Assembly: GCA_021323775.1 (NCBI GenBank)
Contig: JAJPKK010000160.1
Span: 1-58,862, forward strand
DNA from: Hyphomicrobiales bacterium
GTDB taxonomy: Bacteria; Pseudomonadota; Alphaproteobacteria; Rhizobiales; Xanthobacteraceae
Length of the DNA: 58,862 nt
Reading direction: 5' to 3'
The position numbers were made by a program, and so were the translations under genes. Below, in pieces: positions 1-9,055 of the stretch (its first letter is position 1; each line of letters begins with the position of its first letter). Under the pieces are notes generated by a model. It had not been told where the DNA came from and did not search any database. It saw nothing but the letters and a program-made list of their open reading frames with translations.

Positions 1-724
1 ATCTTGCGGCCAGCAGCCGGTCGGCGACTTTGGCGAGGGCGCCTGGATCTGCCGCCATCGCCGCCGGCACCGCGGCCTCGGCAGATGATGGCATCCGCAC
101 ATCCGCAACGAGCGGCTGCTCTTGCAGCCAGGCGTCGTAGCACATGTAGACCGGCCCCTGCGGCTCCGTCATCATCGCCGCATAGGCGCGCGCAAAAGAG
201 TCCGGCACTCCCTCGATGCTGCCGGGCTGATAATCCCACTTAACGTAGTGGCGGACCTGTTCGCCCTGAACGTTGGCCGTGTGGATCCAGTCGATGAAGG
301 GCCGGCGCTTGCTCTCATCCATGGGGCCGGTGGCGCCGATCACGAAAATGGGCGCGCGGTCCATATAGGCATAGTAGATGCCCATCGTCGCGTGAAGCAA
401 CCCGACCACGTCGTGGACGATCGCCACCATGGGTTTGCCGGTCGCCTTGGCGTATCCGTGAGCGATCTGCACCGCGATCTTCTCATGCTGACAAAGCAGC
501 ATGGGCGGATTGTTGCCGCCGTAGTTGACAAGCGAATCGTGCAGGCCGCGGTAGCTCGCCCCTGGATTGAGGGCGATATACGGGAATCCGAACTGCTTGA
601 TCAGGTCGACGATGACGTCCGATTGCCAACGTCTTTTGGCGTATGCACCCTTTCGACTGGTTTCGCTGTCACCTCTCTGTGCATCTGTCGCGATCTCATT
701 CATGTCTTGCTCTTCGGCATTCAT
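1..724 (-). CDS. Thiamine pyrophosphate-binding enzyme (acetolactate synthase-like), N-terminal part
   Basis: This is the first 241 codons of a TPP-dependent enzyme that runs off the left edge of the window. The N-terminal pyrimidine-binding domain is clear: residues 37-57 resemble the family's opening helix and NPG turn, and the motif CQHEKIAVQIAHGYAK supplies the expected catalytic Glu at about residue 81. The conserved stretch GATGPMDESKRRPFIDW follows. The ATG overlaps the TGA of the upstream gene as ATGA, so the two are translationally coupled. Family members decarboxylate or ligate 2-keto acids. The coupling to a Bug-type receptor suggests an imported organic acid as substrate, which is inference. 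The PP and FAD/middle domains lie outside the window, so the subfamily cannot be decided. Confidence 0.85.
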   Translation of the reverse strand, partial: MNAEEQDMNEIATDAQRGDSETSRKGAYAKRRWQSDVIVDLIKQFGFPYIALNPGASYRGLHDSLVNYGGNNPPMLLCQHEKIAVQIAHGYAKATGKPMVAIVHDVVGLLHATMGIYYAYMDRAPIFVIGATGPMDESKRRPFIDWIHTANVQGEQVRHYVKWDYQPGSIEGVPDSFARAYAAMMTEPQGPVYMCYDAWLQEQPLVADVRMPSSAEAAVPAAMAADPGALAKVADRLLAAR

Positions 725-1758
725 GATGCATCGAACGCCTTAGCGACGAGATCGACTATATTTTTCGGAGTCTTGATGATGGCGTCGCTGTATTTCTGCA
801 CCTCGACGCCCGGCGTCGGCTCGATATAGATGCTGCGCTTTTGCGCGTCGGCGAGAAAATCTTTGTCGACCACCACCTTGTCGAACGCGGCGCGCAGCGC
901 TGCCACCCGGTCGGCCGGAACGTTCTGCGGGGCCAGCAGCGCCCGGCCGATGGCGGCGCCGGCCGACACGAATTCGATCGCGGTTTTGGCGGTCGGATCC
1001 GCCACGATCTCCTGCATCAGCGGCACGTCTGGCAGCTCTGGCGTGCGCTTGAGGCCGGCCTGCAGCAGCGGGATAAAGGTCCCGTTATCGATGTTATCCT
1101 TGTCTTCGGCGCGCCAGGAATTCCATGCTTTCGAAACGAGATCGACCTCCCCGCGCAGCAGAGCGAGCGTATAGGCGGACGAGCCGTCATAGCCGCAGAT
1201 GATGTTGAGCGGCATCTTGGCGAGCACCTTGAGGGTTGCGGGATACTGGAAGCTCTGCGACGCGCGGCCGCTGCAGCCCACATTGGTCTTGCCCTTGAAC
1301 AGGTCTTCGGCTGAAGCGAGCCTGGAGCCTTTGTGCACCATGAAGGCGGTATTCACCGGCGCGAACGAGCCGATGTAGCTCATCTTGGTGACGTCCCAGC
1401 GCCCCTGCGCCGGATCCATGAGCTGCACATACGCGATGGTCTCGGGAAATAGCGAGATCATCGAGCCGTCTTTCGGTCCCTTGGCATAAAGGTAGGAAGC
1501 CGCCTTGGAGCCGGCGCCGCCCGGCATGCTCTGAACGATCACGGTCGGCTTGCCGGGAATATATTTGCCGATGTGGGCAGCAGCGAGCTGCGCGTAGAGG
1601 TCGTAGGACCCGCCGGGCGGATGCCCGATCAGGATTGTCAGCTCGTGGCTCTTGTAGAAGTTCTCGACCGTCTGGCCTGCGGCCGGCACTGCGATGCAAA
1701 TTGCCGCCGCCGAGGCAAGCGCCGCCGCGACAAGGCTCCGCCGAGGGAAAGCCGTCAT
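721..1758 (-). CDS. Bug/TctC-family periplasmic substrate-binding protein
   Basis: This 345-residue exported receptor is related to the tripartite tricarboxylate transporter (TctC/Bug) family, which captures carboxylates or related small molecules in the periplasm. Residues 1-29 form a signal peptide ending near PAAG. The early motif LTILIGHPPGGSYDLYAQ and the following PTVIVQSMPGGAGSKAASYLY are typical of the family. The chosen ATG has AAGGAG five bases upstream; a longer reading from 1884 lacks a ribosome site and would bury the signal peptide. The stop overlaps the start of the TPP enzyme. No TctA or TctB membrane gene is nearby, so it is an orphan receptor, as is common for Bug proteins. 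Confidence 0.88.
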   Translation of the reverse strand: MTAFPRRSLVAAALASAAAICIAVPAAGQTVENFYKSHELTILIGHPPGGSYDLYAQLAAAHIGKYIPGKPTVIVQSMPGGAGSKAASYLYAKGPKDGSMISLFPETIAYVQLMDPAQGRWDVTKMSYIGSFAPVNTAFMVHKGSRLASAEDLFKGKTNVGCSGRASQSFQYPATLKVLAKMPLNIICGYDGSSAYTLALLRGEVDLVSKAWNSWRAEDKDNIDNGTFIPLLQAGLKRTPELPDVPLMQEIVADPTAKTAIEFVSAGAAIGRALLAPQNVPADRVAALRAAFDKVVVDKDFLADAQKRSIYIEPTPGVEVQKYSDAIIKTPKNIVDLVAKAFDAS

Positions 1759-2062
1759 GGATGTCTCCTTGGTCGTCTTTGATGATTGCTTAATACTGAT
1801 GAAGCGCCACCGCAACGGGCGTGATCTCAGCAAGCGCGTGGCCGCGAAGCCCCTCCCGTTACCTTCACTTGTGAGCGCGGGCATCTCGCCTGCCCGTTGG
1901 CACGCATAAAAGATGCGTGCGGACGCGCGCGCTCAGGGGAGGGCAGGGAGCGATGCCGCACCGAAATGACGCTTGATCAAGGGCGTGAACGGGCGAGAAT
2001 CCGATCGAGCACCAGCGGCGTCTGCGATATTGCAAGCAAAAATTGCCGGAGGAGGAAACCAA

Positions 2063-5512: not shown

Positions 5513-5572
5513 ATCCTATATTTCGATACAATGATCCCCTTCTCCAAAGTCATGGCCGAGCTGGTCTCCATT

Positions 5573-5802
5573 GGCGCTAACTTAACGCAGGCGCTGACCC
5601 AGAGATTCCATCGCCTGAAGATGCAGGACCGCATTGATCGCTTGGATGCCGGAAAGCCTGGGCTGCAACGGCTGTCAAGGGCGCTTCGCGCCGCGGAGCG
5701 GGTTTACCCCTTGACAGCCGTTGCAGCCAAGGCTGCTTGCTCTGCAAGCGATCAAGGCGGTCCTGCATCTTCCGGACAACCGAAACGCGCTAAGTTAGCG
5801 CC
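5573..5802. repeat. Large imperfect palindrome (about 230 bp), MITE-like
   Basis: The two halves are inverted copies. GGCTGCAACGGCTGTCAAGG at 5661-5680 matches exactly in reverse complement at 5709-5728. GAAGATGCAGGACCGC at 5617-5632 matches at 5757-5772, on the same centre near 5694. The outer ends GGCGCTAACTTA and TAAGTTAGCGCC are also inverted copies, with a small indel in one arm. The only open frames are chance frames that mirror each other. It follows the cupredoxin stop directly and could act as a transcript-end hairpin, or be a non-autonomous mobile element. Confidence 0.8.
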
Positions 5803-5843
5803 TATGGGGCTCGTCCCCGCCCTCCGCGTCTTGCTTGCTTCCC

Positions 5844-5883
5844 CCTCCTACCCTCCCCCGCATGCATCGGAGGGTAGGGAGGA
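5844..5883. repeat. GC-rich palindromic intergenic repeat
   Basis: The arms CTCCTACCCTCC and GGAGGGTAGGGAG surround a GCATGCAT-type loop. It has the same general form as the hairpin at 5067-5101 and lies upstream of the transporter-like gene. Confidence 0.55.
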
Positions 5884-5983
5884 GAAGCCCGGCGACAAGC
5901 GCGAGCATGACGACAACGGATGTGATTCGTTCTCAAGGAACATGCCATGTCGCGTCCGTGCTGCATTTCGCGATGTCATGTGA

Positions 5984-6784: not shown

Positions 6785-6835
6785 GCGCCGCTTTTGCGCC
6801 GCAGGGGGGCAGTCGTCCGTGAAGAATCGGATTTT

Positions 6836-6986
6836 ATGCTGTGGCCGATTTTGGCCGCGCGAGGATCGCTACGGGACGGGCACTAAAGTCCTCAGGCGGC
6901 TGACGACGCCCTCTATGCTGTGGCTGGTTTTGGCGGCGCGAAGACCGCGACAAGGACGAGGCACAATAAAAATCTCAGCCACCTGA
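6836..6986. repeat. Imperfect tandem duplication in an intergenic region
   Basis: A segment starting ATGCTGTGGCCGATTTTGGC at 6836 recurs in diverged form as ATGCTGTGGCTGGTTTTGGC at 6915. Each copy is about 65-70 bases, and both end in a CAGCC-type or CAGGCGG-type motif followed by TGA. There is no gene in this stretch of about 235 bases. Confidence 0.5.
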
Positions 6987-7019
6987 TGGGCAACGGTGCG
7001 AAGAGCGGCGTCGCCCACC

Positions 7020-7553
7020 CTACGGAGCCTGGCCCTGCGTCTTCAGACTGGCCAAAATCTCCTCCAGCGCGCCGTCCGCGAGGGCGCGGATCTCATCATG
7101 GGTGCGGTCCTGGATCGGGTGCGCAACGAATACCACCGCAGGATCGTAGCCGAGGGCCTGGCTCTGCGCCGCCGCCGCGACCTTGAATTCCATGGTCGCA
7201 ACCCCGACCGCCACAACGCCTAGCTGCTCAAGTCCCCTGAGGTCATGCATACAGCACGACGTGCAGGAGCCTCAATCAGCCAAGCCTTCGACGACCAGGT
7301 CGCATTCGGACTTGATCTGCTGCTTCAATTCAAGCGGCGCCAGATGGGCGAAGTGCTTCTTGCGATAGCGCTTCACCACATGGCCGCGGCCGGTCAAAAG
7401 CTCATCGAGGCGGTCCAGAAACTCATCGCCGCGCATCTTCGCGATGTCGAGGAGGCCGATCGTCTTTCCGGCGATCGATTGCGGCCGCACCAGGCGCGGC
7501 TGCATAGCCGGCGCCGTCTCGGCTGTGGGATCGAGGAGAATGTTTTCCGGCAT
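7020..7553 (-). CDS. UGSC-family selenoprotein with in-frame TGA (Sec) at codon 94
   Basis: Read through the TGA at 7274-7272, this gene encodes 177 residues. The first 93 (ILLDPTAE at the N terminus, then GKTIGLLDIAKMRGDEFLDR and VKRYRKKHF) match the N-terminal half of the UGSC family, named after its Sec-Gly-Ser-Cys motif. The codon after EGLAD is TGA, followed directly by GSCTSCCMHDL in the same frame. The next stop comes only after a complete C-terminal half (VAVGVATMEFKVAAAAQSQALGYDPAVVFVAHPIQDR). The TGA thus sits exactly at the motif position, which argues for selenocysteine rather than a frameshift or pseudogene. The start lies two bases after the upstream gene's stop, with AGGGAG nearby. 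The biochemical function is unknown; the Sec and Cys residues imply a redox role. A standard caller would report two short ORFs. Confidence 0.87.
7227..7241 (-). promoter_or_regulatory. Candidate bacterial SECIS hairpin downstream of the UGA
   Basis: On the coding strand CTCAG-GGGAC-TTGAG can form a five-pair stem (one G-U) with an apical loop that begins with G. The loop is about 35 bases after the UGA, near the outer limit usually accepted for bacterial SECIS elements. GCTG before and CAGC after could extend the stem across a one-sided bulge. A closer hairpin, GCAC-GTC-GTGC, has its loop only 11 bases from the UGA. Which one SelB would use cannot be decided by eye. Confidence 0.4.
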
Positions 7554-7555
7554 CG

Positions 7556-9055
7556 CTATCTGATCTCCCTGGTTACCGGTTCGATGCTGCCTCTTCCGCC
7601 GATCGACGGGATGATGGCGGAATATTTGCCGGCGTAGCCGCCGGCACGGATGATATTGAAGGTGCCGTTCTTGAATTTGGGAACCAGGTTGTCCGGGTCG
7701 GACTTCTCTTCGGCCGTCAGTCCGGTCAACCCCGCGCGCCCCGGCGCCACCTCGCGAACTGGGATTTTCAACAACTCCAGAAGCTCCTCCCTCACCCGCG
7801 CTTTTGACCAGCCGGCGTCATAAAACACGATCGCGTGTTCCCGCGCGATCGCCAGGAAGGCCTGCACCCCGATGATGTGGCCGGTGCCGTATATGGCGCG
7901 GATGCAGCCGGCATAGGAGCGGCATAAATCCTCCGGCCGGCGCGAAACGTGATCGATGATTTGGCTGATGCCGTCGCCCGGAAATATCGTGACGGTTGAG
8001 GCATCTGGCGAATAGCCGAGCGACACAGCGTAGGATTCCCACCGCGGATCGTCCTCGTCCTCTGCGAAGCAGAAGGAGTATTTCGCCGGGCTGCCGAAGA
8101 CCGAGCGATCGATCTCGCCCGGCCGCCCGCCGCCCACATTGCGTACGACGAGCTGCAACGTACGGCCGATGGCCGCATTGGCGCGGTTGCCCTGACCGAA
8201 GACGTTGCCCTTTGCATTCATGCCAATGGCGCGCGCGATCGGCCCGTTGACCATCACCACCGGGGTGCAGGCGTTGGTGGTGGCGAGCACGCCGTGAAGC
8301 CCGAAGGCCGGCATCAGCGCGGCCTCGACCGCGGTGAGCACCACAGGCATGTATTCCGGCCGGCAGCCCGCCATGACGGCGTTGATGGCGACTTTCTCGA
8401 CCGTGCATTCCGCATAGTTCGGCGGGATCCGGCCTATGATCTCCTGCGGGGCGCGCGTGGTGCCGTCGAGCATCTCAAGAACGCGCTCCTCGGTGGGCGG
8501 CACTACCGGCAATCCATCGCTCCAGCCGCGCTCATAACAGGTTTCCACCGGGTCGGAGAGCGCCGGCACCGTAATGCGGCGAGATGCAAGCCCGGTGTTG
8601 CCGTATTTCACCTTGAGGCGCACCGGCATGCCCGGGTCCATGGTTTTTGATCCGCAGCCCGGCCGATGTTCCGGCAACCCGTCGCCAAGCGCGGGGATCC
8701 CGGTGATCGCTTGCCATTCCGACCGCCGCCAGCCGACCACGCGCGCCTCCTCCTGCCCATCCCTCAGACGGATCAGGGTAGGCACGGTGTCGATGCTGTA
8801 TCGGTAAGAGGCCGCGAGTGCGCTGTCGTCGCTCGCATGCGAAAAGCCCTTGGCAAAGGTCACATCGTCCTGAACGTGCACTTCAAGCTTCCCGCCTGAA
8901 CGTGCGGCGAGCTCATCAATCTCGCGCAGCGCTGGCATCGCCAGAACGCAGGTCGGACAGTCCTGCTTGACGAAGGCAATGAATGTTCCGGCCGCAAGTG
9001 CCGGCCTCTCGTTGGTTTCGATATCTGGAGCAGCGTCTTGCATCATGGCCGCCAT
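7556..9055 (-). CDS. Thioredoxin-like domain fused to a long uncharacterised domain
   Basis: This 499-residue protein is the first gene of an operon with the UGSC selenoprotein (two-base gap). Residues about 20-115 are thioredoxin-like, with a CPTC active site at residues 33-36 after FIAFVKQD and a cis-Pro-type TVPTLIRL. The remaining roughly 350 residues start at DPVETCYERGWSDGLPVVPPTEERV and contain conserved-looking blocks (NAVMAGCRPEYMPVVLTAVEA, ARAIGMNAKGNVFGQGNRANA). I cannot name this domain's reaction. The pairing suggests that the thioredoxin-like part reduces or receives electrons from the selenoprotein. The start is uncertain: ATGs lie at 9055, 9046 and 9043, and upstream codons overlap a repeat. 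Confidence 0.75.
   Translation of the reverse strand: MAAMMQDAAPDIETNERPALAAGTFIAFVKQDCPTCVLAMPALREIDELAARSGGKLEVHVQDDVTFAKGFSHASDDSALAASYRYSIDTVPTLIRLRDGQEEARVVGWRRSEWQAITGIPALGDGLPEHRPGCGSKTMDPGMPVRLKVKYGNTGLASRRITVPALSDPVETCYERGWSDGLPVVPPTEERVLEMLDGTTRAPQEIIGRIPPNYAECTVEKVAINAVMAGCRPEYMPVVLTAVEAALMPAFGLHGVLATTNACTPVVMVNGPIARAIGMNAKGNVFGQGNRANAAIGRTLQLVVRNVGGGRPGEIDRSVFGSPAKYSFCFAEDEDDPRWESYAVSLGYSPDASTVTIFPGDGISQIIDHVSRRPEDLCRSYAGCIRAIYGTGHIIGVQAFLAIAREHAIVFYDAGWSKARVREELLELLKIPVREVAPGRAGLTGLTAEEKSDPDNLVPKFKNGTFNIIRAGGYAGKYSAIIPSIGGRGSIEPVTREIR

Follow-up and report, generated by a model that had tools for sequence, protein, structure and literature searches.

A UGSC selenoprotein gene and its constant partner: a putative two-subunit selenoenzyme reductase in a Hyphomicrobiales genome

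Proline and glycine reductases have pyruvoyl-forming partner subunits, PrdA and GrdE. The GrdB motif reads UxxCxxC, where U is selenocysteine, according to a passage of a 2026 review (PMC13188914) that also places UGSC among the selenoprotein families with largely uncharacterised functions. UGSC is among the commonest selenoproteins of aquatic metagenomes; passages of a 2008 survey (PMC2398784) report 255 UGSC sequences and propose a thioredoxin-like fold for them, and a passage of PMC9402790 gives the family 8.2% of selenoprotein genes. Here we describe a UGSC gene in a DNA stretch of 58,862 nucleotides (nt), hereafter the window, from a Hyphomicrobiales bacterium of the family Xanthobacteraceae (contig JAJPKK010000160.1, assembly GCA_021323775.1). 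The new elements are a constant, unnamed partner gene, a thioredoxin domain fused to this partner in the window, and a remote link to PrdB and GrdB; together they make the function of UGSC testable. The UGSC-PrdB homology, the thioredoxin-fused partner and the obligate pairing were not found in passages of PMC2398784, PMC13188914, PMC9312934, PMC7539508, PMC5029168, PMC9402790 and PMC9669993, a scope that leaves supplements and most subscription journals outside.

The UGSC gene and its partner

The two genes and their parts, all on the minus strand, are as follows.

7020..7553, minus strand: putative UGSC selenoprotein gene, 177 amino acids (aa) with selenocysteine (Sec) at residue 94; motif U94-G-S-C97-T-S-C100
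7272..7274, minus strand: in-frame TGA, codon 94, read as Sec; TGA also in the relative L036, TGC or TGT in relatives with cysteine (Cys)
7242..7260, minus strand: apical hairpin resembling a selenocysteine insertion sequence (SECIS), 7-pair stem, 5-nt loop UGUAU starting 19 nt after the UGA
7556..9055, minus strand: partner gene, 499 aa from ATG at 9055, with its stop codon 2 nt ahead of the UGSC start
8696..9007, minus strand: partner residues 17-120, a thioredoxin domain with CPTC at 33-36
7559..8578, minus strand: core domain of the partner, residues 160-499, without a credible Pfam or NCBIfam match in profile scans

The UGSC frame opens with the ATG at 7553, runs for 93 codons to the TGA at 7274-7272, resumes with GSCTSCCMHD and continues for 83 sense codons to the TAG at 7022-7020, so that its 177 codons are broken only once. 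The original prediction, which named no strand, had described a 93-codon frame ending in TGA and continued by GSCTSCC over 83 codons, and we confirmed this layout on the minus strand. Read through as a whole, the frame matched the Pfam family PF24696 (UGSC) with E 1.3e-38 and 133.3 bits (cut-off 25), as well as the NCBIfam model NF041046 with 136.2 bits (cut-off 125), the only NCBIfam match at E 0.001. Taken separately, the two halves matched adjoining spans of the PF24696 profile, positions 2-92 for the N-terminal half (E 1.1e-14) and 94-171 for the C-terminal half (E 4.1e-15). With scores over the curated cut-offs, and with a [UC]-G-S-C motif whose opening residue is Sec or Cys, the window gene is, judged by its sequence, an additional member of an already catalogued family. 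A profile search of the window's genome gave no second UGSC match at E 0.001. Since NF041046 already lists the family as a (seleno)protein, annotation need not miss the gene, and the two fragments that had been expected from ordinary annotation would not necessarily arise. What the original prediction overlooked is the partner gene, the source of most of the functional information.

The start of the partner at ATG 9055 is our choice; the mechanical open reading frame (ORF) opens at TTG 9253. In an alignment of 59 chosen partner rows, the core domain was found to conserve a DGLP motif together with Cys231 (59/59 rows) and Cys329 (57/59 rows).

We found the partner core in 80/80 named UGSC loci and in 29/29 of the loci L022-L050. 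Among 296 genomes of the family to which the window's genome belongs, the partner core (E 1e-10) and UGSC (E 0.001) occurred in the identical 32 genomes, with a partner profile that was built from UGSC-found loci and that distant partner relatives without UGSC could escape. Each of the 44 UGSC hits in these genomes had a partner hit on the same strand at most 325 nt away, as measured between profile matches; partner hits numbered 45 in total, one being an extra copy beside another. At ten loci (L032, L033, L039-L043, L046, L049 and L050) UGSC and the partner shared one open frame, where natural fusions were counted only if the open frame spans both parts, other fused flags being artefacts of frame extension. 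The co-occurrence and the natural fusions strongly support the view that UGSC and the partner would work as a two-subunit enzyme. In a 15-kb stretch from the nearest relative, the genes in common with the window were the pair itself, shadow ORFs over the pair, and one weak far hit (27%, 220 aa).

Probable selenocysteine at codon 94

The TGA at codon 94 very probably encodes selenocysteine, as the original prediction had it; the sel genes, the comparison of TGA and Cys codons and the SECIS-like hairpin all support this reading. All four genes of the selenium machinery, which that prediction had proposed to seek, are present in the window's genome. The profile scores of selA (554.8 bits), selB (410.4) and selD (426.5) were all over the cut-offs, and the gene for tRNA-Sec (selC) scored 74.5 bits and was called tRNA-SeC, anticodon tca, by ARAGORN. 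It is placed 731 nt after selA on one contig, while selB and selD are elsewhere in the genome. The ARAGORN call and the position after selA matter because the tRNA-Sec model alone is unspecific, with two other places in the window's genome and 5/14 control genomes also over its cut-off.

On alignment with UGSC proteins, the Sec/Cys column fell at codon 94. The nearest UGSC relative, locus L036 in genome G017 (66% protein identity), has TGA at the same codon, and the next-nearest relatives have Cys codons (TGC or TGT) at the aligned position. A sequencing error at 7272-7274, named beforehand as a possible refutation, is unlikely, as is a pseudogene, because a separate genome has TGA at this very codon. 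After the TGA, the window and L036 differ by 69 bases over 79 codons, distributed as 16/15/38 among the codon positions (38/69 at the third); before it, the respective numbers are 32/24/47 over 92 codons. In a tree of 122 UGSC rows (21 with Sec, 100 with Cys and one with neither), the window and L036 came out as sister to 24 Cys rows, and at least 6 changes between Sec and Cys were counted, of which 3 were forced by starred branches; this tree came from a quick search and has several long branches and unsure deep joins. We also observed selA in 11/13 genomes with a Sec copy vs 5/19 genomes with Cys copies only (Fisher 0.003), a tally composed of 31 genomes (Sec 10/12, Cys-only 5/19) and the window's own genome.

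Bacterial SECIS hairpins sit just after the UGA and carry a G in the apical loop, as does the SECIS-like hairpin of the window gene. The 59-nt fold around the TGA (7222-7280) had an energy of -29.3 kcal/mol with z -3.70, and 0/200 shuffles were as low. A hairpin with GU in the loop was detected after the codon in 21/21 distinct Sec genes vs 4/98 distinct Cys genes. The criterion was an uninterrupted stem of at least 5 pairs, GU inside the loop, and a loop starting 18-20 nt after the codon, within a scan limited to loops of 3-6 nt and starts of 17-22; dropped before counting were one ACC row, 3 duplicate copies and any repeat of an identical 57-base stretch. A stem of at least 6 pairs, taken alone, was present in 20/21 Sec vs 11/98 Cys genes. 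The stem letters vary among the Sec groups and the pairing is maintained; a passage of PMC2398784 mentions conserved guanosines in the loop. Single folds of 45 nt were less telling, with z < -2 in 2/9 Sec genes, those of the window and of L036, and in 3/20 Cys genes. With gathering thresholds, Rfam gave 0 matches over the whole window, a result that says little on bacterial SECIS hairpins.

Side observations concern other UGSC loci. At L165 (genome G046, contig C185) selA has two TGA-bearing UGSC genes on its own strand, at distances of 1.3 and 3.1 kb, and this closeness suggests that the selenoprotein and the selenium machinery travel together. The Actinophytocola sp. contig L076 carries three UGSC-like copies, at 434 (minus strand), 7001-7456 and 9956 (plus strand), of which one has TGA with a 7-pair SECIS-like hairpin, one has Cys, and one has ACC at the catalytic codon. 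Genome G014 (99% complete; loci L164 and L049) has a UGSC gene with TGA and a 9-pair hairpin, yet no selA was found there.

A putative thioredoxin-fed reductase

A profile of 60 UGSC sequences compared with 10 PrdB-like sequences gave, in one comparison, a probability of 93.1 and E 3.2e-7 over 98 aligned columns, with the Sec/Cys active-site positions matched. The E-values of 11 control alignments (nine neighbour-gene clusters, a fumarase set and the partner set) were 0.019 or worse. The PrdB-like set was drawn from the window's class rather than from clostridial PrdB and GrdB, and the five of these proteins that were scanned all matched TIGR04483 (PrdB), with E from 2.1e-52 to 1.1e-24, below its cut-off. 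The window motif U94-GS-C97-TS-C100 likewise spells UxxCxxC. As the PF07355 model fails to recognise UGSC, we class UGSC, as far as sequence can tell, as a remote relative of the PrdB/GrdB-like selenoproteins rather than a member.

Twelve PrdB-like proteins of the window's class (L135-L146) were observed in the course of this comparison. Eleven of them have TGA at the active site, which reads U-P-x-C in all but L140 (UPLD), and L145 has Cys. The five that were scanned score under the cut-off for D-proline reductase, and the twelve are perhaps a separate selenoprotein group. A match of the PrdB-like set to one designed protein among the solved structures (E 2e-5 over 33 residues) was taken as chance.

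For the fold of UGSC we used a model of the natural fusion L043 (predicted local distance difference test score, pLDDT, 86.5; predicted template modelling score, pTM, 0.88). In this model the UGSC part alternates between strand and helix five times, with the catalytic Cys following strand three, and its structural matches, among the 50 listed, are of Rossmann or flavodoxin-like type (Z 8.4-10.3), a common arrangement. This predicted structure makes the thioredoxin-like fold suggested in 2008 less probable.

For the window's partner, the model (mean pLDDT 90.2) shows residues 17-120 as a thioredoxin domain, with thioredoxin topology and the CxxC motif both present (Z 9.7-10.5, root-mean-square deviation (rmsd) 1.9-3.8, 83-119 residues, among the 50 matches listed). 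The partner core was barely tested by VIA-align on this model because the rows listed were of thioredoxin type. The 59-row alignment has 21 partners with the thioredoxin domain, all lacking a C-terminal Cys pair; the remaining 38 divide into 31 with a terminal CxxC or CxxxxC and 7 with neither. A recount over 107 distinct loci (97 separate partners and 10 fused) gave the same picture for the separate ones: 26 with the thioredoxin domain, 59 with a C-terminal Cys pair, 0 with both and 12 with neither. The 26 include 25 counted by script and the window's own partner (L021), where a second DGLP misled the count. In many class I ribonucleotide reductases, C-terminal Cys tails reduce the active site (PMC9669993, passage on these tails).

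We looked for further hints in genes within 7 kb on either side of the 80 named loci, called crudely as longest ORFs and grouped into single-linkage clusters with one representative per cluster scanned; the numbers are raw locus counts in which relatives are counted separately. A thioredoxin reductase cluster (motif CA[TV]CDG) was present at 14 loci, CoA-transferase III (CoA, coenzyme A) at 34, LysR at 38, TctC at 24 and acyl-CoA dehydrogenase at 13. From these genes in other bacteria comes a hint of carboxylate or CoA-linked metabolism, and our guess for the substrate would accordingly be a small carboxylate or carboxylate-derived compound.

In our view the pair is, somewhat more probably than not, a selenoenzyme reductase of two subunits, fed by thioredoxin and broadly of the PrdB/GrdB kind; its reductase chemistry is inferred. 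By comparison with relatives, the UGA and the hairpin behind it would put selenocysteine into a U-x-x-C-x-x-C active site. At the interface of the UGSC subunit with the partner core, the selenolate would attack the bound substrate, and Sec would then be joined to Cys97 (or Cys100) in an oxidised selenenyl-sulfide. Its reset would fall to the CPTC-bearing thioredoxin domain of the partner itself, which thioredoxin reductase would recharge; in other branches, the C-terminal CxxC or CxxxxC tail of the partner may do the resetting. A wider proposal, which we put forward tentatively and hold to be slightly doubtful, is that UGSC and its partner form a separate, widespread branch of Sec reductases, a non-clostridial counterpart of proline and glycine reductase, with a built-in reductant (thioredoxin domain or a Cys tail as in ribonucleotide reductases) and with the partner core as a new catalytic domain.

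A number of observations weigh against such a reductase. UGSC had no match to PF07355 (GRDB) at E up to 10, where the HMMER filters drop most matches above about 0.1, and the partner had no Pfam match to a known reductase component, including a pyruvoyl-forming subunit. A sequence search of solved structures yielded no credible relative of UGSC (best E 0.076) or of the PrdB-like set; the best E for the partner was 0.074, mostly with thioredoxins. The reset scheme is not universal, because the ten fused loci and 12/97 separate partners (L074 being cut by the contig end) have neither thioredoxin domain nor Cys tail, and because four UGSC rows lack the Cys three residues downstream of the catalytic position (L032 and L033 with CGTS, L031 and L034 with CGSS). 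No window gene joins the thioredoxin reductase, CoA-transferase, LysR or TctC clusters, and a scan of eight window genes met with none of the neighbour-cluster kinds. As to selenocysteine, selA was not found in two genomes with a Sec copy, G266 (85% complete) and G014 (99% complete). The hairpin criterion was fixed only after the 45-nt folding results were known, and its counts are not independent events because the Sec genes are related.

The same rows without a resolving Cys and the fused forms without a reducing module would suit a non-reductive pair, such as a lyase, racemase, transferase or hydrolase, with the selenolate as its nucleophile or acid/base; the sole role of the thioredoxin domain would then be to shield the selenolate from oxidation. 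Such a pair would also agree with the resemblance of the UGSC domain in the fusion model to folds of varied function (PurE, a cobalamin-binding photoreceptor and others, Z 8.4-10.3 in the rows listed). We consider it unlikely, given that the displayed rows of the thioredoxin-bearing clade retain both Cys residues after Sec/Cys and that the remote homology points to reductases. Improbable as well, to a greater degree, is the 2008 idea of UGSC as a thioredoxin-like thiol oxidoreductase acting on disulfides of proteins or small molecules. It takes up the UxxC motif of UGSC; against it stand the profile similarity to PrdB-like proteins, the location of the thioredoxin domain on the partner, and the 50 listed matches of the L043 model, mostly on the UGSC part, which contain no thioredoxin, a list that does not exclude others.

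That the partner core could be a hydratase like class I fumarase, with UGSC as its redox regulator, came from Foldseek, in which two models had fumarate hydratases as their top non-thioredoxin hits (E 8e-4 to 3e-3 and probability 0.5-0.85 in the best rows); the same rows have template modelling scores of 0.17-0.33 and rmsd 14-18. Profile-profile comparison did not support this weak suggestion, with hhalign against 12 fumarase (PF05681) sequences giving E 0.8 and probability 0.1, and the fumarase set has three invariant Cys vs two conserved in the partner core; we rejected the candidate as very improbable. Finally, that the TGA, formally a stop in translation table 11, ends a broken gene or one making two fragments is hardly credible in view of the halves matching adjoining parts of the UGSC profile, the sel genes, the TGA of L036, the hairpin, the third-position bias and the tree.

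Some features of the window lie apart from the pair. An intergenic repeat occupies 6835-6980, just past the 3' end of the UGSC gene; the 73 bases starting at 6900 recur elsewhere in this genome, on contig C110, as a copy of 92%, and once more within the repeat, at 6835-6903, as one of 77%. The ORFs 5531-5983 (plus strand) and 5577-5768 (minus strand) overlap and encode similar peptides (MQDR[IL]DRL...) on opposite strands, and this would point to an inverted repeat more than to genes. The ORF 724-1884 (minus strand), considered as a TctC binding protein, had no Pfam match and was rejected.

Comparison with known systems

With PrdB and GrdB (TIGR04483, TIGR01918, PF07355) the window's UGSC shares the remote homology over 98 columns and the UxxCxxC motif. 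Unlike the subunits of those reductases, UGSC is unrecognised by PF07355, and the window's partner has no detected relation to Prd or Grd subunits. The C-terminal CxxC or CxxxxC tails of 59/97 separate partners resemble, by analogy only, those described for class I ribonucleotide reductase in a passage of PMC9669993; unlike that enzyme, the window's partner has a thioredoxin domain and no Cys tail. The Global Ocean Sampling study (PMC2398784) describes a fusion of UGSC to an unnamed conserved domain, Unknown_1, that is probably our partner core; its passages on UGSC make no mention of obligate pairing, of a thioredoxin fusion or of a relation to PrdB. The closest likeness is to the UGSC family itself (PF24696/NF041046), with both curated models matched, the U-G-S-C motif and the exchange of Sec and Cys: nothing excludes the window gene from membership, and the thioredoxin-fused partner is an addition to what the family is described by.
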